From positions 1 through 44,047 of IMG/VR virus record IMGVR_UViG_3300010354_000169: a stretch of 44,047 bases of DNA. One strand, 5' to 3'. Shown piece by piece: positions 1-41,938 of this stretch. The stretch is from a virus. Each line of letters begins with the position of its first letter. Positions within the stretch are counted from its first letter, which is position 1. The notes beneath the pieces are model-generated. The model made no database searches. It was not told the origin of the DNA and worked only from the letters and a program-made list of their open reading frames with translations. Both the position numbers and the translations under genes were made by a program.

Positions 1-1330
1 AGGTCTTCGCGGTGTCTCGATTGCAGCCTATCGCCTTCGCGTTGAGGGTGTGCATGTCCGTTCCACGAGATTTATCACCTCGAAGCACTGTCTCGACATA
101 GGCGCCACCATCCCAATGCGCCATGTAGCCGGCGAGGTCACGAAGCTCCAGAGCATCGGCATCGCAACCAACGAGTACATAGCCATCATCAGCCACAAAG
201 CAGTCACGGCACTCTTCTCCATAGGGTGCATGATTTGCAGGTACTTGAGCTAGGTTCGGGTTCGAGTGGGTCATCCTCCCGGTGTGGGCACCACAGGAAT
301 GGATGCGGCCATGGATGCGGCCTCGCCGCTCATGCCGGAACCAAGCCTCCTTGCCATTGATGATCTGACCAAGACGCTTCTCAACGACGTAGTACTCAGA
401 GAGCAGCTTCGCTTCTGGGTACGGCAGCGCCGAGAGAACGTCTTCGTCCACCGTGGGTGTTCCATCCTTGCCAAACGCCACGGGCTTCCACCCGAGCTTC
501 TTCAGCCGGTCGGCAACCTGCTGACGAGAGCCTGGGTTGAAGACGATGGTGTGTTGCTTCTGGGAGGGCTGCCCCTTGACGTATCCGCGCGTCTTGTTGT
601 TCGCCTTTGGAACAAACACCTCGACGACGGTCTCAGGGGGAAACGATCGCTGTAGCTCATCCATTAGCTCTTGCTTGCGAGCAGTGAGCTTAGCGGCCAA
701 CTGGATAGCCCGTTCCTTGTGGAAGTTGAAGCCGTGTCCCTCGACCTGTCGGACGATCTCCGCAACACGATGCTCTAGCTCCACGCAATCCTTACCGGGC
801 GGCGGGTTCGGATCGTAGAGGTCGATACCCCACTTCTCGGCTTCCTCCTCAATGATCCTCCACAGCTTGGCCGTAACGACTACGTCCTGGTCCATGTAGG
901 ATTGCATTTCTGGAGACCACTTCTCCCACCCACCTTTGTACTCGTCTTTGAGTTCCCCTATGCGGAAGCCCCAAGCTGCTAGTGAGTGTCTCCCAATGTA
1001 CTTCTTGGGGAAGCCTTTCCTGGCTCGGTCGAAGTCCGTCTCCTTGATGTGCCCCCACATGAGCTGAGTGAGGACCATAGTGTCCCGGACGATGCCACTA
1101 GGATTGAACCAGGGGTAGACCTTCCGGAGTGCCGGGATGTCGAAGCCGATGATGTTGTGGCCGATGATGACATCAGCCTCCATCAGCATCCGCACTCCAC
1201 ACTCAATGTCGATCGGGAAGTGGGCGCTGTAGTAGGCGCCCGTGTCCAGGTCAGTGATCCCGAGGCAGTGTAGCTTAGTCAGATCCGGGAGAAGGCCATC
1301 AGTCTCACAGTCGAACACCAGACGGCGCAT
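1..1330 (-). CDS. T7-type DNA polymerase, N-terminal part (gene continues at 44047-43533)
   Basis: Replicative family A DNA polymerase. This piece holds the 3'-5' proofreading exonuclease and the first part of the polymerase domain. It starts at ATG 1330, whose A overlaps the stop of the upstream gene. Exonuclease motifs are visible: FDCETDG (D7, E9), HNIIGFDIPAL, and YMDQDVVVT. Polymerase motif A reads DADALELRDLAGYM, matching T7 DASGLELRCLAHFM. The frame is still open at base 1 (RDTAKT) and continues in the piece that begins at 44047 on the same strand. The total is about 614 residues against 704 in T7 gp5; the thioredoxin-binding insertion region appears short. It sits after NrdJ and two small genes and before a GIY-YIG protein. 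Function is assigned from motif conservation and is secure. Confidence 0.96.
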   Translation of the reverse strand, partial: MRRLVFDCETDGLLPDLTKLHCLGITDLDTGAYYSAHFPIDIECGVRMLMEADVIIGHNIIGFDIPALRKVYPWFNPSGIVRDTMVLTQLMWGHIKETDFDRARKGFPKKYIGRHSLAAWGFRIGELKDEYKGGWEKWSPEMQSYMDQDVVVTAKLWRIIEEEAEKWGIDLYDPNPPPGKDCVELEHRVAEIVRQVEGHGFNFHKERAIQLAAKLTARKQELMDELQRSFPPETVVEVFVPKANNKTRGYVKGQPSQKQHTIVFNPGSRQQVADRLKKLGWKPVAFGKDGTPTVDEDVLSALPYPEAKLLSEYYVVEKRLGQIINGKEAWFRHERRGRIHGRIHSCGAHTGRMTHSNPNLAQVPANHAPYGEECRDCFVADDGYVLVGCDADALELRDLAGYMAHWDGGAYVETVLRGDKSRGTDMHTLNAKAIGCNRDTAKT

Positions 1331-1551
1331 CAGAACTTTCCTTCCGCCCAATCGTTGAGGACTTGAGCCAGAACCTTGGCGTCTGACTTCGACAACCGGA
1401 GATGGCTAAACCTACCTCTCTCCTCCAGCGAAACTCGAAGGCTGTTCTCCTGGAAGTGATGGAAGGTGAGTTTGTCCCCTGGATTGAACACACAAGCTAT
1501 CTCGATGCGCTCTACCGGGTGCGTCATCTTCTTGTAGACAATCTTCGCCAC
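1330..1551 (-). CDS. Small protein of unknown function (73 aa)
   Basis: I do not recognise this protein. It is 73 residues, mixed charged and hydrophobic, with no cysteine pair, membrane segment or clear motif. The start is GTG at 1551, chosen because a strong ribosome site (AAGGAGGA) lies 7 bases upstream. Its stop overlaps the DNA polymerase ATG by one base (TGATG), so the two are probably translationally coupled. Such small conserved genes just before T7-type polymerases are often accessory replication genes, but nothing in the sequence proves that here. Confidence 0.75.
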   Translation of the reverse strand: MAKIVYKKMTHPVERIEIACVFNPGDKLTFHHFQENSLRVSLEERGRFSHLRLSKSDAKVLAQVLNDWAEGKF

Positions 1552-1554
1552 CTA

Positions 1555-1962
1555 TCAGTCCTCCTTCTGTTTGAAGTACCCTTTCTCTTCCATCTGCCTC
1601 ACGAGAGAGACGGCGATGGCGTCAATAGCGTTCCGCTTCATCTGATCGACGAATGCTTCGCCACACTGAAGTTTCTGAAGCCTAGGAACAATGAACCGGT
1701 AATAGAGCGGTCGAAGCTCTACGTGGTGGATGGTGGCGTCAGCACAGAGGTCATACTCTTCTGTGACGCTCAGATCTAAGTTACGAAGGATGGGCTCTAG
1801 ACCCTTCTTCTTGTCGTCCCAGATCTGTTGCTCCAGCCCTGCGATACGCCGCGCCGCGCGGTGCAGAAGAGAGGAGAGGCGCTGGGCCTCTTCCTCCACT
1901 TCGTTGAACCTTCGACGCGACACCGGTATCCATGCCACGAGGCAGGTAATTAGACGCCGCAT
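1555..1962 (-). CDS. Hypothetical protein with coiled-coil N-terminal half (135 aa)
   Basis: Unrecognised. The first 14 residues are hydrophobic and basic (MRRLITCLVAWIPV), which could be a short membrane anchor or signal. A charged helix rich in E, R and L follows (about residues 20-50) and looks like a coiled coil. The C-terminal half has alternating hydrophobic and charged residues. ATG 1962 is preceded by a very strong ribosome site (AAAGGAGGAAC), so the start is well supported. It overlaps the end of nrdJ by 13 bases and ends 3 bases before the GTG of the next gene, so it belongs to the nucleotide/replication operon. Function unknown. Confidence 0.78.
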   Translation of the reverse strand: MRRLITCLVAWIPVSRRRFNEVEEEAQRLSSLLHRAARRIAGLEQQIWDDKKKGLEPILRNLDLSVTEEYDLCADATIHHVELRPLYYRFIVPRLQKLQCGEAFVDQMKRNAIDAIAVSLVRQMEEKGYFKQKED

Positions 1963-3605
1963 GTTCCTCCTTTCCCAGAGATCGAACAGATGTCGTGCTC
2001 TACATACTCAGTTCCTACGCGGTCCCGAGCCTCTCGGTACGGCACCGAGGTCAGCGGCTGCCCACCCCGAGACCCATCAGGGTAGCAAGTGAAACCACGA
2101 AGATGAGGAGAATAGCGGGCAAGTACGTCAGCGAAAGGTCGCACAGTTTCTTCATTGTTGTGTTCTGTTCCCCATGCTGGAAGGTTGATGGTCGAAGAGA
2201 TGGACTGGTCTACGTAGCGCTGAACGCTGGCCTGGAAGGCTATACGCCGCTCGTAGTCCTGAGCGAGGTCGATGGCGCTCTCGATCTTCTCCGGGTCAGC
2301 CCCGTACCGGTCGATGAGTTCCTGAGCCGCGCTGTCCACGACATACTGGTAGTGCCATTGGGTGCCCTTCAAGTAGCGGCGCTTGTACGAGACCGCGAAG
2401 ATGGGCTCGATGCCGGTGGTGGTCCCTGCCAGGATGCCGATCGTCCCTGTTGGGGCGATAGCCCGGACAGCAACCGGCCTGGAGACGCCGAGCTTGGCAG
2501 CGAAAGTGGTGGCCTCGGCATCGCTGCACTGGGCATAGATGTCGAGCCACCTTTCAAGCTCTTCGTTACACTCGTACCGGTAGCCGCGCTTGATTAGCCA
2601 CTCATGAACACCCATGAGGCCGAGACCAAGGCGGCGGTTCTTCTCCCGTACTTGATACACCTTGGAGTATGGGAGGTCAGCCCGGAGGGTTCCACAAAGA
2701 AGGAACCTCGTGGACAGAACAACCACCGCACGTAGCTCTTCCTTGCTCTCGATGCGTCCTAAGTTGATGGATCCGAGATTGCACACGTCGCTATCGTCTT
2801 CGGAACACACCTCTGTGCAGGCATTCCTGAGCGTCTCGTTCTCCTTGTCGTAGAAGTTGAAGGAGAAGCCGGGCTCGCCCGTCATCAGAGCCTGACGCAC
2901 GTTCGCAAGGAAGGTCTCATTTAAGCGGTCGCCTTCGAGCCACGCGGTATCGTAGTTCACCGAGATGTTGGTCATGTCGAGCGGGGCGGGGTAGTTGAAG
3001 TCGGCCTGCTTCGCATCCCAGACTGTAGCCTCGGTGCCGGCGATCTTCATCTTGTGCCAGTCCTTGGCGAAGATGAAATCCTGGACATCCGGGTGCCTCC
3101 AGTTGAGGGAAGCGTACAGAGCCGACCGCCTGGATCCGCCCTGCATGACATGGCGTCCGATCTCGTTGATCATCTGCATCTTTGGAATGGGGCCGGAGGA
3201 TAGACCTCCGGTCCTCGTCAGGGTGTTGTTCTTGCCCCGATACCGGCTGTAGTCGATGCCGATACCCCCGCCGGTCATGAGGCAGCTCTCTGCCTTCCAC
3301 GACAGATCGGCCCAATCCTCCCGAGTGTCCTCTTCAGCCCTCAGGAGGAAGCAGTTGTTGAAGTACTTGGCTTGGCGGCCGGCATAGTAGAGGTACCGCC
3401 CGCCGGGGATGAACTTCATGTCGGCCATGTACTTCGCAAGAACTGCCTTTTCTGCGACCGACATATTGCCAGAGCACACGTCCTCGACGAGTGTCCGGCA
3501 AAGCTCTTCCCACGTCTCAGCGCCCTCGTGGGCGTACTTCTGATTGAATATTGTCTCAGCGAATGCGCTGCGGAACGCGGGGTTCCGGTTGGAGCGGTAC
3601 GACAT
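1950..3605 (-). CDS. nrdJ: Adenosylcobalamin-dependent (class II) ribonucleotide reductase
   Basis: Converts ribonucleotides to deoxyribonucleotides for phage DNA synthesis. Visible catalytic features: the redox cysteine in YFNNCFLL (C85), the active-site N-x-C-x-E set in NACTEVC (N261, C263, E265), the second redox cysteine in CNLGSINL (C275), the loop APTGTIGILAGTTTGIEP, and the C-terminal reducing cysteines (C540 and C549). The 551-residue length has no room for an N-terminal ATP-cone, and no NrdB-like radical subunit is encoded anywhere in the window. Both points favour the B12-dependent class II enzyme over class I. ATG 3605 has an AAGGAG site. It lies between the MazG-like gene and DNA polymerase, a nucleotide-supply position also seen in marine T7-like phages. 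A class I large subunit using a host NrdB is the less likely alternative. Confidence 0.93.
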   Translation of the reverse strand: MSYRSNRNPAFRSAFAETIFNQKYAHEGAETWEELCRTLVEDVCSGNMSVAEKAVLAKYMADMKFIPGGRYLYYAGRQAKYFNNCFLLRAEEDTREDWADLSWKAESCLMTGGGIGIDYSRYRGKNNTLTRTGGLSSGPIPKMQMINEIGRHVMQGGSRRSALYASLNWRHPDVQDFIFAKDWHKMKIAGTEATVWDAKQADFNYPAPLDMTNISVNYDTAWLEGDRLNETFLANVRQALMTGEPGFSFNFYDKENETLRNACTEVCSEDDSDVCNLGSINLGRIESKEELRAVVVLSTRFLLCGTLRADLPYSKVYQVREKNRRLGLGLMGVHEWLIKRGYRYECNEELERWLDIYAQCSDAEATTFAAKLGVSRPVAVRAIAPTGTIGILAGTTTGIEPIFAVSYKRRYLKGTQWHYQYVVDSAAQELIDRYGADPEKIESAIDLAQDYERRIAFQASVQRYVDQSISSTINLPAWGTEHNNEETVRPFADVLARYSPHLRGFTCYPDGSRGGQPLTSVPYREARDRVGTEYVEHDICSISGKGGTCGV

Positions 3606-3613
3606 AGTTCTCC

Positions 3614-3775
3614 TTACTTGATGGCTGTCCGTTGGAGGCGAACCTCCCTAGAGACCCTTTTGCGGAGTTCCTTGAGATCTCCCGGAGAAGGGTCAGGTGT
3701 GGTGAGCTTGAGCTTGGCCAGCTCTTCCTGGTATTTCTGTTCTATCTCTTCTGCGATCTGAGCGAACGTCGTCAT
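3614..3775 (-). CDS. Small helical protein of unknown function (53 aa)
   Basis: A 53-residue open frame starting MTTFAQIAEEIEQ, rich in E, K, L and R and predicted by eye to be mostly helical. ATG 3775 is preceded by GGAG at 7 bases, and the start overlaps the stop of the MazG-like gene as ATGA, so translational coupling is likely. It ends 8 bases before the nrdJ start; the nrdJ ribosome site follows directly. Tight packing and a good ribosome site support a real gene. No family is recognised. Confidence 0.72.
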   Translation of the reverse strand: MTTFAQIAEEIEQKYQEELAKLKLTTPDPSPGDLKELRKRVSREVRLQRTAIK

Positions 3776-4104
3776 CTGTCGTCTCCGTCCCCGGCGATCG
3801 TCCCTCGCTCTTTCCGGCTGCGGAGCTGCTTCAGATTGGTCTTGGCGATGTCGTCGAGGTTGAGACCGAGGTCAGTCGCGAGAGCGGCGCAATACCACAG
3901 CACTCCGCCGATCTCCTTGGCCACCGCTTCGCGGTCTTCTTGGGAGAAATGGCCGTCCTTGTCCCGATAGATCTTCTTGACCTTGTTCGCCACCTCGCCT
4001 GCTTCACCAGGGAGACCCATCGTCGGGTAGACGATCCGCAGCCACCCATTCTCGCGATAGACAGCTGTCTCAGCGGTCTTCTTCTGATACTGATTGAAGT
4101 GCAT
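3772..4104 (-). CDS. mazG: MazG-like nucleotide pyrophosphohydrolase
   Basis: Members of this all-alpha NTP pyrophosphatase fold hydrolyse (d)NTPs or alarmone to monophosphates. The 110-residue protein has the E-x2-E motif in LPGEAGEVAN (E34, E37) and the second metal-binding helix KEIGGVLWYCA (E64). The family normally has ExxD in the second helix; here the Asp position is Gly67 (codons GGC GGA are clear in the DNA), so one of four metal ligands is missing. The C-terminal helix DDIAKTNLKQLRSRKERG is typical of phage MazG-like proteins. The gene sits between the helicase block and nrdJ. It may be active with altered metal binding, or act as a binding protein. Confidence 0.88.
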   Translation of the reverse strand: MHFNQYQKKTAETAVYRENGWLRIVYPTMGLPGEAGEVANKVKKIYRDKDGHFSQEDREAVAKEIGGVLWYCAALATDLGLNLDDIAKTNLKQLRSRKERGTIAGDGDDR

Positions 4105-4105
4105 C

Positions 4106-4306
4106 TTATGCCATCCTCTTGAGTGCGTCGGCTGAGGCCCTGATAGATGTGACGGCGCTTAGGGTGACCTTCGCCCTTGAAGGTTCAGCGTCGTAGCTGT
4201 TATGGGCTGTGTTGTGAGCGATGGCCGCCAGCCCTGCGGAGATGATGCAAGACTGCAAGATGATGAGCTGCTTCAGCTCCTCGAACTGCTTCTCTGTCAT
4301 GGTCAT
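4106..4306 (-). CDS. Small hypothetical protein (66 aa)
   Basis: Unrecognised. MTMTEKQFEELKQL begins a helix, followed by a moderately hydrophobic stretch (about residues 14-30, IILQSCIISAGLAAIA) that could be a buried helix or a weak membrane segment. The tail is Ala/Ser/Arg rich. It starts 3 bases after the primase-helicase stop and ends 1 base before the MazG-like ATG, so it is part of the same transcript. No clear Shine-Dalgarno is seen, so it may depend on re-initiation after the helicase gene. Function unknown. Confidence 0.68.
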   Translation of the reverse strand: MTMTEKQFEELKQLIILQSCIISAGLAAIAHNTAHNSYDAEPSRAKVTLSAVTSIRASADALKRMA

Positions 4307-4308
4307 GA

Positions 4309-5913
4309 TCAGAACGGGTCCTTCTCTTCGCTGTTGAACAGGTGAACACCCAAGCCCTCCTTCAGGAGGCCTGAGGGGACATCGTAGGTGAGGGGTATGG
4401 TGAGCCCGGTGGACTGACCTGTCGGCCGATCCTTCAGAACTCGCAGCACGGAGGTATTCTTGTCGCCATCAGCATCTGACTGCTGATCGCGCTCCAGTCC
4501 GAACATGAAATGGGACCAGAAGCCGATTGCTCGTGAGCCTTTGAAGTGGCGGATCTTCACCCGCCCGCCTTCCTCGTGCGGTGAACCTTCAGGGGTTGCG
4601 AGGTGGGACACGAACAGGAGCCATATGCTCAGCTCCTTAACTAGGCTTCCCAGCTCAGCCATGATCTTCTCCAGGGCCACGCGCTCATCCTCAGAGGCCG
4701 CAGCCAAAGCGGTGAGATGGTCCAGGTAGAAGATCCTCACACCCTTCGAGTGCCGAAGGTAGCGGATGCGCTCGCGAACGACTTCCCAGTCGCAAGCCCC
4801 GAAGTGGTCGTAGAGGAAGAAGCGGTCGAACTCCTCCCGAGATGTCGTTACCTCCAGCTCGGATTGGGTCCACCCACTCTTGGGGATGTGGAACGTCTTG
4901 CCGACCATCTGCCCGGCGACACGCTTCACCGTCTCCTCAGGAGGCTGCTCGAACGCGAACACCGCTACCGAGAGGCCGAGTTCCTTCAGGTCGAACGCGA
5001 TCTGCTGGGTGAGGAAAGTGGTCTTTCCGACGCCAGTGCCAGCCCCGAGAGCTACGGCCTCTCCGTACCGCCTCCCGTATGTCGCAGCACTCAGCGAGGG
5101 GAGACACCACGGCAGACCTTCCTCCGGAGGCTTGAGAACCTTCTCCCGGACATCTCTCGCGAGAACAATCCCGTCCGGTCGGTATTCCTGAGCATTCCAG
5201 AGACATGCCACAAGCTCTTCCGTACGAGACGCCTTGAGCATCTCGTTGGCGTCCTTCAACGGTAGGGCGGCAACCTTGCACCGGCCGGGCGGAAGTATGC
5301 CGGAGCACTCCTTCGCCGCAGCTTGGCCAGCCTCATCCATGTCGAAGCAGAGGACAATCTCCTCGAAGCCCAGGAGCCATTGCAGGTTCGCAGCGATGGC
5401 TTTCTTGGCTCCAGAAGCTCCATTCGGAATGGACACGACTGGCCACTTGTGGTCGAAGCACTGAGAGATGGACATCGCGTCCAACTCTCCCTCAGTGATC
5501 ACTATTCTCCGCCCCTTGGACCTCCACAGCCACTGGCCGTATAGGAGGTCCCCGAGCGAGCCCTTGACGAGGAACCTCTTATCCTTGAAGCGGAGCTTCT
5601 GGCCGACGACGTTGACACCGTCTGCGGAATAGTTCGCGATCTGGACAGGCTCGCCCTGGTAGGTGGCTACGAGGTACTGCCACTTTGCGCAGGTTTCTTC
5701 GGTAAGGCCCCGAGCAACGATCGCCTGGGGAGCACCGGCCTTGATCAGAGATCCAGACATGGCAGGCATTCTCCTTTGAGTGCGGCGGTCGTCGCCGGGT
5801 TCATAGTACTTGCAGCCAAAGCAGTGGGCATGGCCGTCATCGTACCGGGCGAGGTTGTCCCTCGATCCGCACGAGGGACAGGGCTCATGCCCAATGCAGC
5901 GGCTGTCAGCCAT
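4309..5913 (-). CDS. T7 gp4-type primase-helicase
   Basis: Bifunctional replication protein: primes lagging-strand synthesis and unwinds DNA as a hexamer. Domains in order from Met at 5913: zinc ribbon (C12, C15, C31, C34); TOPRIM primase core with TEGELD (E141) and FDMDE (D191, D193); helicase with Walker A GAGTGVGKTT (about 290-299), Walker B IFYLDH, and LLFVSHLATPEG; acidic tail ending EEKDPF. Length is 534 residues against 566 in T7 gp4. I chose ATG 5913 because the zinc ribbon follows at once; an open frame extends upstream to 5979 but overlaps the previous gene heavily. The terminal Phe after acidic residues matches the T7 gp4 tail that docks on the polymerase. A second internal start is described separately. 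Confidence 0.96.
   Translation of the reverse strand: MADSRCIGHEPCPSCGSRDNLARYDDGHAHCFGCKYYEPGDDRRTQRRMPAMSGSLIKAGAPQAIVARGLTEETCAKWQYLVATYQGEPVQIANYSADGVNVVGQKLRFKDKRFLVKGSLGDLLYGQWLWRSKGRRIVITEGELDAMSISQCFDHKWPVVSIPNGASGAKKAIAANLQWLLGFEEIVLCFDMDEAGQAAAKECSGILPPGRCKVAALPLKDANEMLKASRTEELVACLWNAQEYRPDGIVLARDVREKVLKPPEEGLPWCLPSLSAATYGRRYGEAVALGAGTGVGKTTFLTQQIAFDLKELGLSVAVFAFEQPPEETVKRVAGQMVGKTFHIPKSGWTQSELEVTTSREEFDRFFLYDHFGACDWEVVRERIRYLRHSKGVRIFYLDHLTALAAASEDERVALEKIMAELGSLVKELSIWLLFVSHLATPEGSPHEEGGRVKIRHFKGSRAIGFWSHFMFGLERDQQSDADGDKNTSVLRVLKDRPTGQSTGLTIPLTYDVPSGLLKEGLGVHLFNSEEKDPF
5760..5777 (-). promoter_or_regulatory. Internal ribosome site for a gp4B-like short helicase
   Basis: Inside the primase-helicase gene, just after the zinc ribbon, the sequence AAAGGAG (5777-5771) stands 10 bases upstream of an in-frame ATG at 5760 (Met52, MSGSLIKAG) and 1 base before another ATG at 5769. 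T7 makes a 63-residue-shorter gp4B from an internal start at the same place in the protein. Translation from 5760 would give helicase plus TOPRIM without the zinc domain. Inferred from sequence; no expression evidence. Confidence 0.66.
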
Positions 5914-12493: not shown

Positions 12494-12703
12494 CTAGTTG
12501 AGGGATAACCATACGATCAACGGAAAGGCCTTCTCCCCATTTGAGTTTTCCTCGTAGGACAACCCCAGTTGGAGGCACCGGGCTTGCGCTCGTTGCTCCT
12601 CCTCGCGGATTGCGGCGTCGGGCTCTAGGTACACTTCGAGCAAACGCGGCTCGTAGGCCTCGATATATTCCCGCGCCGAAAGGTGGCAGGCTGTAGCAGT
12701 CAT
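12494..12703 (-). CDS. Small early protein, unknown (69 aa)
   Basis: Last gene of the leader-array block. The N-terminal half is acidic and helical (YIEAYEPRLLEVYLEPDAAIREEEQRAQARCLQLG), followed by SYEENSNGEKAFPLIVWLSLN. ATG 12703 has AAGGGAG upstream. Its leader (12727-12795) is the most diverged copy of the array. Not recognised; possibly a host-takeover protein by position. Confidence 0.7.
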   Translation of the reverse strand: MTATACHLSAREYIEAYEPRLLEVYLEPDAAIREEEQRAQARCLQLGLSYEENSNGEKAFPLIVWLSLN

Positions 12704-12726
12704 CTACTCTCCCTTCTCTACACGAA

Positions 12727-12795
12727 GTTACTAACAAGTGTCAAGCGACCCTTAATGGCAGGGAGAGGGGCGTGGTGAAGCACTCCACCCCTCCC
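12727..12795 (-). repeat. Early leader element, copy 12 (diverged)
   Basis: In transcription direction: hairpin GGGAGGGGTGG ... CCACGCCCCTCTCCC with small bulges, then GCTTGACACTTGTTAGTAAC, a diverged form of the core plus second inverted repeat, then the ribosome site of the 12494-12703 gene. TTGACA here matches a sigma-70 -35 box exactly, but no good -10 is seen at 17 bases. Confidence 0.7.
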
Positions 12796-12808
12796 AGCCT
12801 CGGTCGGA

Positions 12809-12937
12809 TCATTCCTCAGATAGACAGAAGGCTTCCTCCCAGTCATCAATTACAGCGTTAGAGTACAACTCGTCAAGAGCTGAGTCTACGAACTGTTCAG
12901 CGATGGAAGGAAGGGCAGCTCCAAGGGTACTGTTCAT
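12809..12937 (-). CDS. Very small early protein (42 aa)
   Basis: 42 residues (MNSTLGAALPSIAEQFVDSALDELYSN...), acidic, ending WEEAFCLSEE. The start ATG 12937 has AGGAG about 8 bases upstream and follows a full leader element, which is the main reason to accept so short a gene. Small acidic proteins in this position are often inhibitors of host enzymes or DNA mimics, but no specific family is recognised. Confidence 0.66.
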   Translation of the reverse strand: MNSTLGAALPSIAEQFVDSALDELYSNAVIDDWEEAFCLSEE

Positions 12938-12954
12938 TTGTAGGTCTCCTAAAT

Positions 12955-13009
12955 GGTCACTGGAAAAGTGACAAACCCCCCGCCGCCCTTTGACAGATGA
13001 CAGGGGAAT
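12955..13009 (-). repeat. Early leader element, copy 11
   Basis: Hairpin CCCCTGTCA ... with GGCGGGGGG on the other arm (imperfect), then GTTTGTCACTTTT, then CCAGTGACC completing the inverted repeat GGTCACT/AGTGACC, then TTTAGGAG. Precedes the 12809-12937 gene. Confidence 0.85.
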
Positions 13010-13011
13010 AG

Positions 13012-13260
13012 TCAGTATTCGGCCGCGTTGAGTTCAGCGATCCGGGCGTCCGCAGCGCGGAGTTGGCGGATTGCTTCGCGAGCGCCTATCTTGCGCTTCT
13101 TCATGACCTTCCATGTGTGGAAGGCGTCCCAGTTGTTCGAGCTGTCCTGCAACGCTTTGCGAAGCGTCTTCGGCAGCTTGTCGTAGGCGTCCATTTGCTC
13201 TCTTAGAGTTGCAGAGAAAATGGACCCCTTCGCTCCGGGGATGTAATCGTTACCATTCAT
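13012..13260 (-). CDS. Small basic early protein, DUF6525-like pattern (82 aa)
   Basis: 82 residues from ATG 13260, which has AGGAG 7 bases upstream. The pattern REQMDAYDKLPKTLRKALQDSSNNWDAF...WKVMKKRK resembles short alphaproteobacterial and phage proteins with 'MxAYDxLPxxLRxAL...W' (DUF6525-type; recalled, not searched). The C-terminal helix is basic then acidic (AREAIRQLRAADARIAELNAAEY). Function of that family is unknown to me. It follows leader copy 10. Confidence 0.75.
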   Translation of the reverse strand: MNGNDYIPGAKGSIFSATLREQMDAYDKLPKTLRKALQDSSNNWDAFHTWKVMKKRKIGAREAIRQLRAADARIAELNAAEY

Positions 13261-13273
13261 GTTCAATCTCCTA

Positions 13274-13323
13274 GGTTACAAAGGGACAAACCCACCCCGC
13301 CACCTTGCTCGATGACGGGGTGG
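13274..13323 (-). repeat. Early leader element, copy 10 (second hairpin lost)
   Basis: Perfect stem CCACCCCG/CGGGGTGG (13323-13316 with 13299-13292), then GGGTTTGTCCCTTTGTAACCTAGGAG. The stem sequence differs from other copies but pairing is complete. The core is kept while the second inverted repeat is reduced. Precedes the 13012-13260 gene. Confidence 0.8.
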
Positions 13324-13326
13324 AAC

Positions 13327-14070
13327 TCAGGCTCTAACCACGTTCTCATTCGTCGCAACGAGCCGTAGCTTCCTGGGAGCAACAGGCCGCTTGGCCACCT
13401 TCCGCTTACGACGATGGGGCGTTGGCTTCTCGGTAGACACTCGCCATGGGCCGCCTAAGCCCAGCCAGATGCCGATGAAGGCAGTGAGGTCTAGCGAGAC
13501 CGGGAGGAGCCAGGGAGGCATCTGGTAGGGCGCCTCCTTGGTAGCTCGGGCTTCTGCCTGGATCAGCCTCTGCTCGGCATCAGCGGCCCTCTTACGAGCC
13601 CCCTCGGCCGTCTCCCGTGCGTTCCTGCATTGAGGTCCGCAGTTCTTGACACCGTTGAACCGGGCTTCAACTTGGGCAGCCTGCCTTGCGGCAGTCTTGG
13701 CGTCCGCTAGGTCTGACCTAGCCCGATCGGCTGCACTTGAGAGCGCTAGCCGTTCGGCGTGACTCCCTGCCTTGGCGTGATGTATCCGCTCGGAAGCGGC
13801 GTAGAAGGCCACCACAGCCGCAGGTACGACAACCAAGGGCCACACGAGGATGGCCCTCAGCTTCGATCCAGTGTCCCAAGCCCAATGGAACACCGGCGGG
13901 AAGAATGCCGCTGCTGCTACGAGGAAAGGGGCAGCGAGCACAATGTACGTGACTTGACCACCTTCCAGCCTGAGAGCGTACTCCCAGGCTCCGTAGCAGC
14001 TCAGTCCCGCTGCGACCAATCCGACGATGAAGACGAACGGCCGCCAGAAGATCCACTTGTGGTGTCTCAT
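13327..14070 (-). CDS. Inner-membrane protein with long coiled coil (247 aa)
   Basis: Four likely membrane helices (about residues 10-30, 40-60, 72-92 and 185-205) flank one large hydrophilic domain (about 98-182). That domain is an Ala/Arg/Glu-rich coiled coil interrupted by a Cys pair (NCGPQC). The C-terminal tail (about 215-247) is strongly basic (PHRRKRKVAKRPVAPRK) and probably cytoplasmic. It is by far the largest gene of the early block and the only one with this topology. Membrane proteins expressed early by phages often exclude competing phages or alter the envelope, but that is inference. No named family is recognised. Confidence 0.85.
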   Translation of the reverse strand: MRHHKWIFWRPFVFIVGLVAAGLSCYGAWEYALRLEGGQVTYIVLAAPFLVAAAAFFPPVFHWAWDTGSKLRAILVWPLVVVPAAVVAFYAASERIHHAKAGSHAERLALSSAADRARSDLADAKTAARQAAQVEARFNGVKNCGPQCRNARETAEGARKRAADAEQRLIQAEARATKEAPYQMPPWLLPVSLDLTAFIGIWLGLGGPWRVSTEKPTPHRRKRKVAKRPVAPRKLRLVATNENVVRA

Positions 14071-14085
14071 CTGTGAGCACTCCCT

Positions 14086-14139
14086 TGGTTACTAGCAAAG
14101 TCACAAACCCCCTGTCACCCGTCTCCAGATGGCAGGGGA
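14086..14139 (-). repeat. Early leader element, copy 9
   Basis: Stem CCCCTGCCA/TGACAGGGG (one G-T pair), then GGGTTTGTGACTTTGCTAGTAACC. The core has one change and the second inverted repeat is imperfect (GTGAC/GTAAC). Precedes the membrane-protein gene. Confidence 0.82.
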
Positions 14140-14143
14140 ATGC

Positions 14144-14434
14144 TCAGACCCAGCCCGAGACTGCCGGGTCCTTCACCTCTTGCGAGGCATCCTCAGCGAT
14201 GTCCGGGAGGCCCTCGTCGAGCCAGCCCTCAGCGAGAACCTTGCGGTCTCCTTGAGCGGGCCAGTTGCGAAGGACTACGCGGTATCGGTCTCGGTTCTCC
14301 TTGTAGTCGTAGCTCAGCTCCACCCGGATTGCGCCGGACCAGCCTGCTGCCTGGACTACAAGGCCTGAACTCTTATGGCCGCAACGGGTAGCCTGACCGG
14401 CTGGCCCTTGGAGCGTTCCATAGAAGTGCGACAT
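14144..14434 (-). CDS. Conserved small phage protein, 'MSHFYG' type (96 aa)
   Basis: Starts MSHFYGTLQGPAGQATRCGHKSSG, a pattern I recall from hypothetical proteins of many alphaproteobacterial phages and mobile elements (MSHFYG.. / G.ATRxGxKxSG / AAGWxGAI). The rest is beta-rich (AIRVELSYDYKENRDRYRVVL) with an acidic C-terminal third. It is probably a small beta-fold protein; its function is not known to me. ATG 14434 is preceded by AGAGGAG, after leader copy 8. Confidence 0.82.
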   Translation of the reverse strand: MSHFYGTLQGPAGQATRCGHKSSGLVVQAAGWSGAIRVELSYDYKENRDRYRVVLRNWPAQGDRKVLAEGWLDEGLPDIAEDASQEVKDPAVSGWV

Positions 14435-14457
14435 GGTGGTCTCCTCTCTCTCTCAAT

Positions 14458-14516
14458 GGTCACTAGGGAAAAGTGACAAACCCCTGCCATGCGGCGTACT
14501 GAACCACATGGCAGGG
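14458..14516 (-). repeat. Early leader element, copy 8
   Basis: Stem CCCTGCCATG/CATGGCAGGG with a 16-base loop, then GTTTGTCACTTTTCCCTAGTGACC (core plus second inverted repeat), then an expanded AGAGAGAGAGGAG ribosome region. Precedes the 14144-14434 gene. Confidence 0.9.
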
Positions 14517-14522
14517 AAATAG

Positions 14523-14753
14523 TCAACTCGGGGAATACTGGTACCACAACTCCCGGAGGATGCTATCGAAGGTACGGCCCTCGTCAGCGCTCTCCATGGC
14601 CTCGAACTCCCTCCAGAATAGGGCCGCGTCATCTCCAGCGAACCAGAGGTTCTCATTGAACCCCTTGTGGTGGAGAGTGTAAGCGGCACCTCGTCCGGAG
14701 GATTGAAGCGAGTAGTGGTCAGTGTCCACGATGGTGACAGTTGATGAGTACAT
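14523..14753 (-). CDS. Small early protein, unknown (76 aa)
   Basis: Starts MYSSTVTIVDTDHYSLQSSG at ATG 14753, with AGGAG upstream. It has an antiparallel-strand-like N-terminal half and a helical C-terminal half (DDAALFWREFEAMESADEGR / FDSILRELWYQY). An open frame runs further upstream into the leader element, but that region is structured leader, so the inner ATG is preferred. Not recognised. Confidence 0.78.
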   Translation of the reverse strand: MYSSTVTIVDTDHYSLQSSGRGAAYTLHHKGFNENLWFAGDDAALFWREFEAMESADEGRTFDSILRELWYQYSPS

Positions 14754-14766
14754 GCTAGGTCTCCTC

Positions 14767-14815
14767 GGTTGAAAAGGGACAAACCCCCCTGCCACCCGTC
14801 TCCAGATGGCAGGGG
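14767..14815 (-). repeat. Early leader element, copy 7 (second hairpin lost)
   Basis: Stem CCCCTGCCA/TGGCAGGGG is perfect, then GGGTTTGTCCCTTTTCAACCGAGGAG. The core survives with one change; the GTGACC half of the second inverted repeat is absent. Precedes the 14523-14753 gene. Confidence 0.84.
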
Positions 14816-14823
14816 AATGGACC

Positions 14824-14991
14824 TCATGAGCCAGCCAGCTTCACAACGTCAAAGAGCACCGAGGCGGCGCCAAGGACGATGTTGCCAATGGCCAAGAAGT
14901 ATGCGGCGTAGTCGAGCCAGGGGTAGTCCTCGAAGGGAGGACCAGAGATGACGAGCCACAGCAAGCCAAAGCCGATGATGATGTTAAACAT
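14824..14991 (-). CDS. Small two-helix membrane protein (55 aa)
   Basis: MFNIIIGFGLLWLVISG (residues 1-17) and AAYFLAIGNIVLGAASVLF (about 29-47) are two strong membrane segments joined by PPFEDYPWLDY. ATG 14991 has AGGAG about 6 bases upstream and is preceded by a complete leader element. It is a likely inner-membrane miniprotein, perhaps involved in exclusion or membrane modulation early in infection. It is not near the lysis genes, so holin is less likely. Not recognised. Confidence 0.76.
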   Translation of the reverse strand: MFNIIIGFGLLWLVISGPPFEDYPWLDYAAYFLAIGNIVLGAASVLFDVVKLAGS

Positions 14992-15008
14992 ACGTGTCTC
15001 CTCACGAT

Positions 15009-15063
15009 GGTCACTAGGGAAAAGTGACAAACCCCCTGCCACCCTTTGACAGATGACAGGGGA
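15009..15063 (-). repeat. Early leader element, copy 6
   Basis: Stem CCCCTGTCA/TGGCAGGGG with loop TCTGTCAAAGGG, then GTTTGTCACTTTTCCCTAGTGACC, then CATCGTGAGGAGACACGT and ATG. From the core to the start codon it is identical to copy 5. Precedes the 55-residue membrane-protein gene. Confidence 0.92.
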
Positions 15064-15071
15064 ATAGGCCT

Positions 15072-15374
15072 TCAGTAGATGCTGAAGTAAGCATCCTCAT
15101 CTTCGGCGAGCGCACCGCCAGTGAGCCAGATGAGACGGTTGAGGTTCTCGTCATGGTCGAGAAGCTCTTCCTCAGTCCATGCTCCGTACCCTTTCAGGTA
15201 CGCCGCACAGTCCGCTTCATCGCCGGTGATGTCATAGACGCGGCGAACATAGGCCACGGCCTCATCGGCTGGCCCAGGCTTTCCGCAGTCTACGAGATCA
15301 GCCAGTAACTCAGGCGATACATCGTCCCGCCCAAGGAGGAAGTCTATTCCGGCGTAGTGGATTGCATTCTTCAT
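15072..15374 (-). CDS. Acidic early protein, unknown (100 aa)
   Basis: 100 residues, strongly acidic and helical (DDVSPELLADLVDCGKPG, YDITGDEADCAAYLKGYG, EEELLDHDENLNRLIWLTGG) with an acidic end (EDEDAYFSIY). ATG 15374 has AGGAG after a complete leader element. The charge recalls DNA-mimic or host-enzyme inhibitor proteins of early T7-like regions, but no motif supports a specific target. Confidence 0.78.
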   Translation of the reverse strand: MKNAIHYAGIDFLLGRDDVSPELLADLVDCGKPGPADEAVAYVRRVYDITGDEADCAAYLKGYGAWTEEELLDHDENLNRLIWLTGGALAEDEDAYFSIY

Positions 15375-15391
15375 ACGTGTCTCCTCACGAT

Positions 15392-15445
15392 GGTCACTAG
15401 GGAAAAGTGACAAACCCCCTGCCACCCTCTGACAGATGGCAGGGG
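15392..15445 (-). repeat. Early leader element, copy 5
   Basis: Stem CCCCTGCCA/TGGCAGGGG with loop TCTGTCAGAGGG, then GTTTGTCACTTTTCCCTAGTGACC and CATCGTGAGGAGACACGT. Taken with copies 4 and 6 it defines the consensus. Precedes the 15072-15374 gene. Confidence 0.93.
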
Positions 15446-15450
15446 AATGC

Positions 15451-15633
15451 TCAGTCCTCGACCTGACGCGGTTCGCACAACCCGGCTTGGATGAGGGCAC
15501 TTGCAGTGCGCCCATAGTGGCCTTGAAGTGTCCATGCTGCGCCGGTGTTGATCAGCTCTTGGAACAGGTCGATGGTCTCCTCATCGGATAGTTCGCCTTG
15601 CTCATAGGCCATGATCTTGGTCACGTCTGGCAT
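15451..15633 (-). CDS. Conserved small phage protein (DUF7417-like, 60 aa)
   Basis: Sequence [16 protein letters not shown] / [21 protein letters not shown] / QAGLC is a pattern I recall from very widespread 55-65 residue phage proteins ('[31 protein letters not shown]', DUF7417-type). Function is unknown in that family. It is helical, acidic at the front and otherwise globular. ATG 15633 has AGGAG; the leader region in front carries a duplicated ribosome-site segment described separately. Confidence 0.88.
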
Positions 15634-15669
15634 GGTTCGGTCTCCTCACAATGTTCGGTATCCTCACAA
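15634..15669 (-). repeat. Tandem duplication of ribosome-site segment
   Basis: In transcription direction the segment ATTGTGAGGA-T/G-ACCGAAC occurs twice back to back between leader copy 4 and ATG 15633. The first copy reads GAGGATACC, the second GAGGAGACC. Only the second is at normal distance from the start codon. Confidence 0.85.
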
Positions 15670-15670
15670 T

Positions 15671-15724
15671 GGTCACTAGGGAAAAGTGACAAACCCCCTG
15701 CCACCCTCTGACAGATGGCAGGGG
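15671..15724 (-). repeat. Early leader element, copy 4
   Basis: Stem CCCCTGCCA/TGGCAGGGG, loop TCTGTCAGAGGG, then GTTTGTCACTTTTCCCTAGTGACC. Hairpin and core match copy 5 exactly. Precedes the DUF7417-like gene with an extra duplicated segment in between. Confidence 0.93.
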
Positions 15725-15730
15725 AAAGGC

Positions 15731-16033
15731 CTAGTCGAGGAAGTCAGACGCCGGGCGAGGGACGTAGTAGTCCACGCCGAGCGTCTTCGACACATGGCCG
15801 ATCGGAATCGTCTTGCCCAGAGCCTTCACAAGGATGATGAGAACAGGCTCACCGGTATCCTTGATGCGGCCAGGGCAAGCATCGATCTCGCCGATCCCCA
15901 TGAGGACAGCTTGTAGGCCGCCCATGTGGATAGTCTCAGCTTCGTTGAGGGAGTCAACGATGCGGTTAATAAGAGCCTCCTCGGCTTCCGTATCCTTACC
16001 CTCTTCGATGGCGAAGATATTGGTCACGTTCAT
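15731..16033 (-). CDS. Early protein, unknown (100 aa)
   Basis: From ATG 16033: MNVTNIFAIEEGKDTEAEEALINRI, an acidic helical start, then a beta-rich second half (GGLQAVLMGIGEIDACPGRI / GEPVLIILVKALGKTIPIG). The mixed alpha/beta composition suggests a compact globular domain. AGAGGAG precedes the start, after leader copy 3. Not recognised. Confidence 0.78.
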   Translation of the reverse strand: MNVTNIFAIEEGKDTEAEEALINRIVDSLNEAETIHMGGLQAVLMGIGEIDACPGRIKDTGEPVLIILVKALGKTIPIGHVSKTLGVDYYVPRPASDFLD

Positions 16034-16054
16034 AGCAAGGTCTCCTCTAGTAGC

Positions 16055-16111
16055 GTCACTATGGAAAAGTGACAAACCCCTGCCATGCGGTGCATAGAAC
16101 CACATGGCAAG
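16055..16111 (-). repeat. Early leader element, copy 3
   Basis: Stem CCTTGCCATG/CATGGCAGGG (one G-T pair), then GTTTGTCACTTTTCCATAGTGACG. The second inverted repeat is kept with changes at its edge. Precedes the 15731-16033 gene. Confidence 0.88.
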
Positions 16112-16119
16112 GAATAGGT

Positions 16120-16338
16120 TCAGCGAACTCCAACCAATGCGTCCACTGTCTCCGGCCGTTCCGTGACGTACAGGTAGTCCGACCCACTACCATCGAAGAT
16201 GATTAAGGTGGTCCTGGACCCTCGCTCGAATTGGTCTAGCGTCGGATCAGTCGGGTAGTACCGGATGATGTGGTCAAGGTTTACCCGGTGGATGAGGCCT
16301 ACCTTGAAGGCTGAAGTGAGGCGGATGAAGTTGTTCAT
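16120..16338 (-). CDS. Small early protein, unknown (72 aa)
   Basis: From ATG 16338: MNNFIRLTSAFKVGLIHRVNLDHIIRYYP. Beta-rich, with RTTLIIFDGSGSDYLYVTERPETVDALV at the C-terminal end. The layout (strand, strand, 'DHIxRYYP', then a strand with 'TxIxFxGSGSxYLYVxE') resembles small LytTR-like or flagellar FlbD-like folds, which bind DNA or nucleotides, but the match is by eye and weak. AGGAG precedes the start after leader copy 2. Confidence 0.77.
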   Translation of the reverse strand: MNNFIRLTSAFKVGLIHRVNLDHIIRYYPTDPTLDQFERGSRTTLIIFDGSGSDYLYVTERPETVDALVGVR

Positions 16339-16354
16339 TAGGGGTCTCCTCAAT

Positions 16355-16413
16355 GGTCACTAGGGAAAAGTGACAAACCCCTGCCATGCGGCGCACTGAA
16401 CCACATGGCAGGG
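16355..16413 (-). repeat. Early leader element, copy 2
   Basis: Stem CCCTGCCATG/CATGGCAGGG with a 15-base loop close to that of copies 3 and 8, then GTTTGTCACTTTTCCCTAGTGACC and TTGAGGAG. Precedes the 16120-16338 gene. Confidence 0.92.
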
Positions 16414-16419
16414 AATAGG

Positions 16420-16770
16420 TCAAGCCGCGCCGACTAACGCAGCCTCAGCTCGGGCGATTTCGATGATCTCCACATTCCCGCTAGGGTATCGAAGGTACAT
16501 CGAATGCTGATCGGCTTGGAGGCCGATCTCGACCGCTATCGAGTGAAGCAACGAGCGGACAGTCACTGTGTCATGACATGCCACAGTGAACTCCCACACG
16601 GGTTCCTGCTGAACATCTCCGGTATCGGGATTGATCCAAGCACCCTCCGCCTCTCGGACGGTGCACCCACCGAAGGTGTCTGCTAGGAACCGAACGGCCC
16701 GCTTCTTGACCAGAGGCAGAGGCCGGCCGTCGTTGTCGTTCTTCGGGCAGACGATAAGAGCTTCACGCAT
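16420..16770 (-). CDS. First early gene, unknown protein (116 aa)
   Basis: The gene nearest the non-coding region, so probably the first expressed. MREALIVCPKNDNDGRPLPLV begins a mixed alpha/beta protein, with AVRFLADTFGGCTVREAEGAWINPDTG in the middle and VWEFTVACHDTVTVRSLLHSIAVEIGLQADQHSMYL following. No motif is recognised. ATG 16770 has AGAGGAG upstream and leader copy 1 in front; because no gene lies upstream, that copy must serve this gene. Early T7-like genes at this position often counter host defence; that is a positional inference only. Confidence 0.8.
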   Translation of the reverse strand: MREALIVCPKNDNDGRPLPLVKKRAVRFLADTFGGCTVREAEGAWINPDTGDVQQEPVWEFTVACHDTVTVRSLLHSIAVEIGLQADQHSMYLRYPSGNVEIIEIARAEAALVGAA

Positions 16771-16794
16771 GGTGGATCTCCTCTGTAGTGAAGC

Positions 16795-16843
16795 GTCACA
16801 ATGAAAAGTGACAAACGCCTACCCGCTATGTTCACGGGTAGGC
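16795..16843 (-). repeat. Early leader element, copy 1
   Basis: Perfect stem GCCTACCCG/CGGGTAGGC with loop TGAACATAG, then GTTTGTCACTTTTCATTGTGACG. The stem sequence is unlike the CCCTGCCA family, yet pairing is complete. There is no gene upstream, so this copy is a leader and not the terminator of a preceding gene. Confidence 0.9.
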
Positions 16844-17564
16844 AATGCTTAGGCGCTCTCGCCATGGGCGGTTAGATACACCTGTTTCGGTGCACCCTAG
16901 CGGCCATGGATGCTGAGCACCCAAGCGTTGCTATGGGTTGGCTCCTGGGTGGCGGTGCGAGACCCGTAGGGATGATCTCACTGGCCCTAGCGCTGCACAA
17001 ACGGCAGCACATGGCCCCGCTCCTATGAGGAGCTTCGTGCTGTGCCCGGAGAACCCTTCCCACGATTGATCAGGTGATCTACACCTTCGCCTCTTCGGCA
17101 GCGCCCTCTGTTGAGCGCCTATCGTAGTGCAGGAGCATAAGACATCAGTCACGGTGGCAGAGGTTAGCGACGCCTGCCTCGTCGAGACCCCTGCATCATG
17201 GCAGGGACCGTGGTGGCTGTCAAGCCCCGTAGGGGCTGCCCTTTCGGGTGGCCATTGCCTCACACCAGAGCGCCCCTTCTGCGGGTCAAGCGGGTCGGGT
17301 TGACGTGCACCTCGACGACGCTCTGATGTGGTGCCGACCGGGCATCGCCGATCGACCCCATTAAGCTGCCACAAAGCCTGCCATCTGTCAACCCCTTCGG
17401 GGTTGCCCCATTGGCGGAGCGGTGCGGGTGTGATGCGCGAGCGCGGAGAAGAAACAAAAAACTCCAAGGAGGACGTTCACACGCGGATATCCCGACCCCC
17501 CTGCTCGGATATCGTGCGAGGCAGATATCGCATCCGCTTGCACAGCCTGTGACGGCGCCGATCT

Positions 17565-17581
17565 TGTCACCTTTGGTGACA
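17565..17581. repeat. Perfect 7-bp inverted repeat TGTCACC/GGTGACA
   Basis: TGTCACC-TTT-GGTGACA, a symmetric site in the non-coding region upstream of all early genes. Its half-site GTCAC also occurs in the leader array with a different spacing. It could be an operator for a dimeric regulator such as the MarR-like protein, or a small hairpin. Confidence 0.55.
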
Positions 17582-17703
17582 CCAGACGAGACAACCGAGG
17601 CGATTTCGACCGAAGATCGAGGGGGGCACGGGGGGTATCGCGCGTTCTTCTCTTTTCAGACCCCACTTCGCACAACTACAGCAAACTATCCGGGGCACCT
17701 AAT

Positions 17704-18045: not shown

Positions 18046-18068
18046 AGGGAGACTATAGTGTACCCTAT
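18046..18068 (-). promoter_or_regulatory. Possible phage RNA polymerase promoter
   Basis: In transcription direction: GATAGGGTACACTATAGTCTCCC. The octamer CACTATAG is identical to the core of the T7 promoter (TCACTATAGGG), and the site lies directly upstream of the last late gene in an AT-rich stretch. I found no second clear copy before other late genes, so the assignment is tentative. Confidence 0.35.
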
Positions 18069-18108
18069 CTATATATATATATAGGTATATATAGGTATAC
18101 TATACGTT

Positions 18109-18144
18109 CCTTGATCATGTTCCTCTTCCTTCATCCTCCTACAT
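18109..18144 (-). repeat. Direct repeat copy 1, duplicated translation-start segment
   Basis: The same roughly 35-base segment occurs here and at 18202-18236 with one difference. In transcription direction it reads GTAGGAGGATGAAGGAAGAG then GAACATGATCAAGG: a purine-rich ribosome site followed by ATG ATC AAG. Here it opens a 17-codon frame ending in the AT-rich repeat. Confidence 0.9.
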
Positions 18145-18201
18145 ACTCTCATATTGAACAGTCCCTGTAAGATTATCCAGGAAGAAGATACATGTTAGGT
18201 A

Positions 18202-18236
18202 CCTTGATCATGTTCCTCTTCCTTCTTCCTCCTACA
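18202..18236 (-). repeat. Direct repeat copy 2, duplicated translation-start segment
   Basis: Second copy of the ribosome-site-plus-ATG segment, 93 bases from the first. It opens a 12-codon frame (MIKVPNMYLLPG). It also forms one arm of an inverted repeat with 18258-18274, which would hide its ribosome site in RNA. Confidence 0.9.
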
Positions 18237-18274
18237 GGAACCTTAACTGTAGGGTGTCTGTAGGAGGGAAGAGG
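18215..18274 (-). repeat. Inverted repeat that would cover a ribosome site
   Basis: CCTCTTCCCTCCTACAG (18274-18258) is complementary to CTGTAGGA...GGAAGAGG (18237-18215) with a short bulge and a loop of about 20 bases. It starts 39 bases after the large terminase stop. It could act as a late transcript barrier or as a switch over the mini-frame at 18202-18236. No T tract follows. Confidence 0.7.
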
Positions 18275-18312
18275 TACAAGGGCATGTTAGGAACGCCTAA
18301 AGGGTACCTTCT

Positions 18313-37911: not shown

Positions 37912-38178
37912 TCATTTGAGGCTATCTATTTTGCGGCACTGTGCCCTAGCATGTCCGTAGTCCTCAACAAGCCTAGCAACGGCAGAGCCGGGAGGGAGCT
38001 GTTTAAGCTCCTTCCCAGCCTGCTGCTGAAAGGTGGAGGAGTACGTTGGCAATTCGGGACAGCGCGTGATGATGATGCTAGAACTTCCCGTCGCGCAGCC
38101 GCTCAGCGGCAGGGACAGAAGGAGTGCTGGCAGCGCTCTTCGCGATCTGCTCTTCTTTCTCACGGATCTCCTCGGCAA
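37912..38178 (-). CDS. Rz1: Outer-membrane spanin lipoprotein (Rz1-type)
   Basis: 88 residues with a basic start (MPRRSVRKKSRSRR), hydrophobic core ALPALLLSLP and lipobox L-S-G-C (C28), so it should be cleaved and lipidated. The mature part is short, with Pro residues and a helical end (AVARLVEDYGHARAQCRKI). It begins inside the i-spanin gene in a different frame (overlap about 101 bases), the overlapping arrangement typical of Rz/Rz1 pairs. It disrupts the outer membrane at lysis together with the i-spanin. Confidence 0.88.
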   Translation of the reverse strand: MPRRSVRKKSRSRRALPALLLSLPLSGCATGSSSIIITRCPELPTYSSTFQQQAGKELKQLPPGSAVARLVEDYGHARAQCRKIDSLK

Positions 38179-41677: not shown

Positions 41678-41938
41678 TCACCTCGACTGTTGTTCTTTCC
41701 TCAGACGGGCGAGATGGCTGATGACCTCTTGTTGGCCACACATTATATCGTAGGCCCTGAGATCATGGCTTCTCGACACCGTCACCGGGAAGATGCGATT
41801 AAGGTAGGCGATGAGGTCTTCCTCGATCACCGGCTCGGGGCCAATATGTCCGAGGTCCTCAATACGCACCTGTTGTTTAGGGCTAGTGGCCCCGGAAACC
41901 GTAGTCTCCGGAGCCACTCGCTGTATGCGGACGCTCAT
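41678..41938 (-). CDS. Hypothetical protein before the gp7.3-like pair (86 aa)
   Basis: MSVRIQRVAPETTVSGATSPKQQVRIEDLGHIGPEPVIEEDLIAYLNRIFPVTVSRSHDLRAYDIMCGQQEVISHLARLRKEQQSR. A disordered first 30 residues precede a helical domain. The region EEDLIAYLNRIFP...LRAYDIMCGQQEVISHLARLRKEQ is like small conserved proteins near T7-like portals, but I cannot name a family. It is packed 3 bases from both neighbours, so part of the late transcript. Confidence 0.7.
   Translation of the reverse strand: MSVRIQRVAPETTVSGATSPKQQVRIEDLGHIGPEPVIEEDLIAYLNRIFPVTVSRSHDLRAYDIMCGQQEVISHLARLRKEQQSR

Follow-up and report, generated by a model that had tools for sequence, protein, structure and literature searches.

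The virus record IMGVR_UViG_3300010354_000169 (44,047 bases; its whole length is hereafter called the window) belongs to a T7-like phage by gene content, with genes for a single-subunit RNA polymerase (RNAP), a primase-helicase, a terminase, and a portal. The phage also carries a temperate gene set, comprising a MarR-type regulator and a tyrosine integrase whose end is overlapped by tRNA-Leu. Its small early genes are separated by copies of one structured repeat, and an original prediction, made from the window alone, had proposed 12 such copies, one before each of 12 early genes. In this study, we aimed to define this array, its RNA structure, its relatives, and its probable function. The whole study is sequence analysis, and genes were called with a home-made caller. 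The features of the locus are as follows.

12494 to 16770, minus strand: early gene block of 12 small genes (42-247 amino acids, aa) of mosaic origin, followed by the MarR-like gene and the integrase.
17195 to 17223, minus strand: putative early sigma70-type promoter TTGACA-N17-CATGAT, from the promoter scan; the region is near-identical in the related contig L014 (TTGACA-N17-CATAGT).
16771 to 16847, minus strand: copy 1, the leader copy that precedes early gene 1, with first hairpin (H1) at 16816-16844, core at 16815, GTCAC/GTGAC stem, and Shine-Dalgarno sequence (SD).
16339 to 16419, minus strand: copy 2, the whole stop-to-ATG gap, with H1 of 15 base pairs (bp), core at 16377, and second stem.
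16034 to 16119, minus strand: copy 3, core at 16076, second stem.
15634 to 15730, minus strand: copy 4, core at 15693, second stem.
15375 to 15450, minus strand: copy 5, core at 15414, second stem.
14992 to 15071, minus strand: copy 6, core at 15031, second stem.
14754 to 14823, minus strand: copy 7, core at 14783, GTCCC type, without second stem.
14435 to 14522, minus strand: copy 8, core at 14480, second stem.
14071 to 14143, minus strand: copy 9, core at 14107, GTGAC type, without the GTCAC..GTGAC dyad.
13261 to 13326, minus strand: copy 10, before the DUF6525 gene, core at 13290, GTCCC type, without second stem.
12938 to 13011, minus strand: copy 11, core at 12975, second stem with a loop of 5 nucleotides (nt).
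12704 to 12808, minus strand: degenerate 12th site, core-like GCTTGACACTTGTT, first core T at 12744.

All 11 cores have a GC hairpin on the 5' side and an SD and ATG on the 3' side, and the composite element was thus confirmed for these copies. The exact 13-letter core GTTTGTCACTTTT occurs eight times on the minus strand and not once on the plus strand (0.0001 expected). The core lies at an almost fixed distance from the stop codon (36-43 nt, copies 2-11) and 29-59 nt from the ATG; hence, the element fills the whole intergenic gap from stop to start. A covariance model built from the window and L014 copies recovered the 11 window copies and no other confident match in the window, and neither a core with up to two mismatches nor a confident model match was found elsewhere in this genome, outside 12.7-16.9 kilobases (kb). 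As had been stated, no well-supported gene precedes copy 1. An 18-nt segment of copy 4 that includes the SD is tandemly duplicated (15635-15670). The proposed 12th copy did not hold. The site at 12744 has a partial core match and a different hairpin, differently placed; it is missed by the covariance model and lacks an array-type counterpart in L014, where only CTTGACAC stands at the equivalent position. The number of true copies is therefore 11, and the 12th site is probably not a functional member.

H1, a GC hairpin of 9-15 bp in most copies, lies directly 3' of the stop codon. In an arm-swap test, the arms of H1 were 93% (0.933) paired with their own partners and 65% (0.645) paired after swapping; the own-arm value was not attained in any of 20,000 permutations. 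The arms were paired directly because MAFFT misaligned several H1 stems; stems R4 and R7 are still misread in this test. In the covariance-model alignment, which is fitted to the structure, hence leans toward pairing, and includes a few weak antisense hits, 99% of H1 cells were paired and 12 double-change cells stood against 2.6 expected (0/500). Sliding controls on the same alignment were 25-62% paired. Because its arms carry these compensatory changes, H1 is a true RNA helix. Against dinucleotide shuffles, the window gaps fold with a median z of -3.1. A second inverted repeat, GTCAC..GTGAC, had been claimed for each copy. It is present in eight of the 12 sites, just 5' of the SD, and is missing from the 12th site and from the copies of GTCCC and GTGAC type. 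Where it occurs, the second stem, GTCACT..AGTGAC, folds strongly (z of about -4 to -6.5); it is optional in both the window and L014.

The array-bearing relatives, all of them IMG/VR viral contigs, were found via an alignment query; RNAP and integrase queries alone gave almost nothing. For several relatives, the early region was taken from the opposite contig end, assuming a circularly permuted contig. L014, whose RNAP was the closest found (60%), holds nine copies of the same sequence family, mostly before different genes, and its hairpins vary and include one with a UUCG loop. The array thus recurs in a close relative, and the original prediction withstood the refutation test set with it, absence from all close relatives. 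The covariance-model search proposed with the original prediction gave these L014 copies and nothing convincing in the 39 further sources searched (best E 0.019). Six further phages (L141, L215, L051, L142, L140, and L030) have the same layout in the early block with their own sets of hairpin, linker, and SD (median fold z -2.0 to -5.2). The order of stop, hairpin, linker, leader, SD, and ATG is common to all array phages, and the hairpin and core letters are phage-specific. About 11 copies were counted in L141 (the loop is mostly GAAA and the linker resembles TTTTGCTTTT), four in L215, about six in L051, seven in L142, three to four in L030, and three in L140. GNRA- or UUCG-type loops occur among the arrays. 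An energy-cutoff survey was too weak for recognizing arrays (1-72% of coding segments pass), so they were judged by sequence shared among the copies of one genome. Since the nearest relatives use unrelated sequences of the same layout, evolution seems to keep the folded shape and not the exact letters.

In a quick RNAP tree, with support from the Shimodaira-Hasegawa-like approximate likelihood ratio test (SH-aLRT) only, seven of the eight array-bearing phages fall into one clade (support 100) and L030 lies outside it; the array label requires two changes on this tree versus 7.6 in shuffles. The sister group of the array clade holds Xanthobacter prophages without an array, which suggests a host in Hyphomicrobiales. 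By reading, no such array was seen in Lo5R7ANS, LUZ100, or the prophages found in named genomes. The exact core had no match in the GTDB genome contigs, and one record of the phages collection matched array DNA, over one gene only. A search for near matches to phage DNA gave none. At gathering score, Rfam 15 gave no match in the array region and tRNAs only in L014, L141, and L215. The literature search, which covered open-access papers, yielded no account of such arrays; this is not proof that none exists. Two exact-core matches in IMG/VR, from unrelated phages of 46-47% GC, and a promoter-pattern match, L154, were attributed to chance. The repeated gaps of Brevundimonas phage Bajun (L218), with a shared GTTAAGAC motif and hairpins, were not counted because the motif, which could be a promoter, also occurs at a distance from genes. 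At 612-5643 of Bajun, the small genes are separated by gaps of about 61-65 nt that have GTTAAGACC and a hairpin in common, and two genes of this phage have homologues among the array genes of the window.

Comparison with L014 showed what travels with the gene and what with the place. The element had been assigned to the gene that follows it, which is borne out by the core type of two genes: the aberrant GTTTGTGA core (GTGA) precedes the same 247-aa gene, and the GTCCC core precedes the DUF6525 gene, in both phages. The assignment fails for the copy 1 hairpin, which is kept in place in L014, with an A-U to G-C double change, before different genes. From these cases, the right part of the element tends to follow the gene and the left part the place. 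The genes common to the two phages differ in order, and the early block is a mosaic whose genes have relatives in phages of Streptomyces, Mycobacterium, Caulobacter, Brevundimonas, and Pelagibacter. Both features would suit repeats that serve chiefly as cassette boundaries, at which recombination adds, removes, or shuffles small early genes, without a regulatory role of their own; a similar role has been proposed for T4 PeMobs. However, H1 pairing is kept through compensatory changes, which recombination alone does not require, and we regard this explanation as very unlikely.

The dyad and its distribution bear on another suggestion of the original prediction, binding sites for a repressor. 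In such a DNA operator or stoperator array, the MarR-like repressor or another phage protein would bind GTCAC..GTGAC. Eight copies carry the dyad, a related palindrome lies near 17580, and TGTCAC motifs lie near the RNAP promoter region. Nevertheless, the dyad is absent from four of the 12 sites and from most L014 copies, the second stems vary between copies within L141 and within L215, and the covariation in H1 is of the RNA type. The suggestion is accordingly disfavoured, and we consider it highly improbable. The palindrome, TGTCACC-AAA-GGTGACA at 17566-17585, is non-coding, lies upstream of the early promoter, and is the only other GTCAC..GTGAC dyad found. The TGTCAC motifs flank the probable RNAP promoter region (about 10944 and 10721). 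The palindrome and these motifs are possible MarR sites.

The putative early promoter lies about 345 nt upstream of copy 1. No sigma70-type promoter was found inside the array, the one match in the region being that at 17223 (2.5 expected by chance); since none was found inside, the array genes are probably read as one transcript, with the distal genes dependent on readthrough. Interpretations of the core as a sigma70 or Caulobacter-type promoter were dropped, for there is no conserved -10 and the spacing is unsuitable, and a promoter array is disfavoured. A phage RNAP promoter reading is also disfavoured because neither core nor confident model matches were found before the middle and late genes.

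With moderate confidence, we propose that the array punctuates the transcript at the RNA level by forming and protecting 3' ends, whether through termination or through processing. Host RNA polymerase would transcribe the block from the sigma70-type promoter near 17.2 kb, and the RNA would fold into H1 directly past each stop codon. Together with the U-rich linker (UUUGUCACUUUU), H1 would form and protect the 3' end of the upstream cistron. The route could be leaky intrinsic termination at the interrupted U-run, an endonuclease cut in the linker with trimming to H1, or both. Readthrough or processed RNA would open the next cistron with a short leader (with the second stem in eight copies), the SD, and the ATG, and copy 1 would act likewise on the leader of roughly 345 nt. 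We infer from the sequence that 3' ends form at H1, by termination and/or processing. The original prediction that the early block has its own dedicated cis-regulatory system is supported by the confinement of the element to this block, its compensatory changes, and its recurrence in L014.

Tail scores, for which the tail strings were chosen by hand in place of automated hairpin and terminator scores that misplaced stem ends, were 2.7-4.1 in the window (3.1), L014, L141, and L215. The post-integrase terminators of the same phages scored 2.5-5.1, and the 99th percentile of the background was 2.19. The U-run of the window is interrupted by GTCAC and is not flagged by the terminator scan. Several points weigh against the punctuation proposal. 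Hardly any or no U-run is present in L140, in L030, and in part of L142 and L051, so termination is not a function shared by all array phages. Termination must also be weak or relieved, because 11 efficient serial terminators would silence the distal genes. The core is conserved beyond the needs of a U-run, which allows for a sequence-specific partner, and T7 RNase III-type pairing beyond H1 was not found in the window (z -1.0).

The same tails could be read as regulated attenuators, in which H1 and the U-run are efficient terminators until a phage or host antiterminator factor acts, with early expression tied to the lysis-lysogeny choice. The U-rich tails of the four phages, the location of copy 1 in an untranslated leader ahead of any gene, and the temperate MarR and integrase genes are consistent with this, but the interruption of the window U-run and the same layout without a U-run in L140 and L030 are not. 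In addition, a family search, which was not exhaustive, recognised no antitermination protein among the early proteins. We consider attenuation unlikely. A translational leader, in which H1 and the second stem set ribosome access or block coupling from upstream so that each cistron has independent and possibly regulated initiation, is quite unlikely as well. Every copy ends at an SD and ATG, and the second stem lies beside the SD in eight copies; yet this stem is optional, and H1, which is conserved best of all the structures, ends 29-59 nt short of the ATG and leaves the SD unsequestered in most predicted folds.

For RNA punctuation, the closest functional analogue appears to be the T7 early operon with its RNase III sites, which is likewise the early block of a T7-like phage, read from host promoters, with hairpin-bearing gaps that include the one before the first gene. 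The T7 gaps before genes 0.3, 0.5, 1, 1.1, and 1.3, which we take to hold the RNase III sites (the T7 record lacks that annotation), fold into hairpins of 9-13 bp that are very similar to H1. The first RNase III site of T7 acts on the leader ahead of gene 0.3, and in the window, too, a hairpin stands before each early cistron, the first included. T7 sites differ by an added lower stem around an internal loop, which brings the duplex to about 20 bp. Beyond the window value given above, the z of such a lower stem was -0.7 in L014, 0.2 in L141, 0.9 in L142, and 2.7 in L051, with no lower stem above chance in the window, L014, or L141; the test has little power, as T7 itself reached only 1.2. Relative to T7, the copies of the window are more numerous and unrelated in sequence, and they have a conserved U-rich core and, optionally, a second stem. 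Leaky intercistronic intrinsic terminators, which occur in phiX174, share with the array a GC hairpin right after the stop and a U-rich stretch next to it, repeated after successive genes. In contrast to them, the array has a copy before the first gene, and its U-run is interrupted and does not occur in every phage with this layout.

Cluster K mycobacteriophages have start-associated sequences (SAS) and extended start-associated sequences (ESAS), which are repeats 5' of many early start codons, partly inverted repeats, with an unsettled function; SAS is a 13-bp motif adjoining the start codon, and the ESAS of Adephagia carry SigA-like -10/-35 hexamers (PMC3203893, PMC11373665). The array is similar as a repeated element upstream of many early-gene starts, but it lacks a promoter consensus, begins at the upstream stop codon, and has a hairpin that covaries as RNA. 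The 13-bp SAS motif GGGATAGGAGCCC, which adjoins the start codon, was absent from all the gap sequences read by eye, and no SAS/ESAS-type promoter hexamers lie inside the repeat, the only sigma70-type match being outside the array. LUZ100 is likewise T7-like and of temperate type; it encodes MarR, integrase, and tRNA-Leu, and its two host promoters, P1 and P2, are near-identical and spaced about 200 bp from each other (PMC10134795). It differs in having no repeated array and a more distant RNAP (39%). T1 and T2 of LUZ100, annotated as terminators from long-read transcripts, fall on long early hairpins without a U-run, a parallel that favours the punctuation proposal.

Other features of the window were noted. 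The large subunit of ribonucleotide reductase is encoded in this T7-like phage at 1950-3605. Two late-region gaps share TTGAGGAC-NN-CGGAC (41848-41865 and 37953-37970, minus strand), a weak candidate for a phage-polymerase promoter (6/100 shuffles equal). Just after the terminase gene, a 41-nt purine-rich repeat occurs in two copies (18103-18143 and 18196-18236, minus strand; 93%), the second of which lies inside a 37-nt imperfect inverted repeat (18209-18286), and an AT-rich palindrome (18064-18091) adjoins them. This region could be a promoter or packaging signal.

A wider picture is offered tentatively. A temperate T7-like clade may have its own hairpin punctuation, rewritten in concert in each phage and recognised by a phage or host factor, which would couple early expression to the lytic/lysogenic choice and allow small accessory genes to be inserted as ready-made units. 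The layout of hairpin after the stop, linker, and leader is kept while the letters differ, a natural experiment that separates structure from sequence. The array is a source of ready-made parts for multi-gene operons and bears on the origin of the RNase III-punctuated early operon of T7. From it one would learn how a phage takes in a large number of unrelated small early genes while leaving the expression of their neighbours undisturbed.

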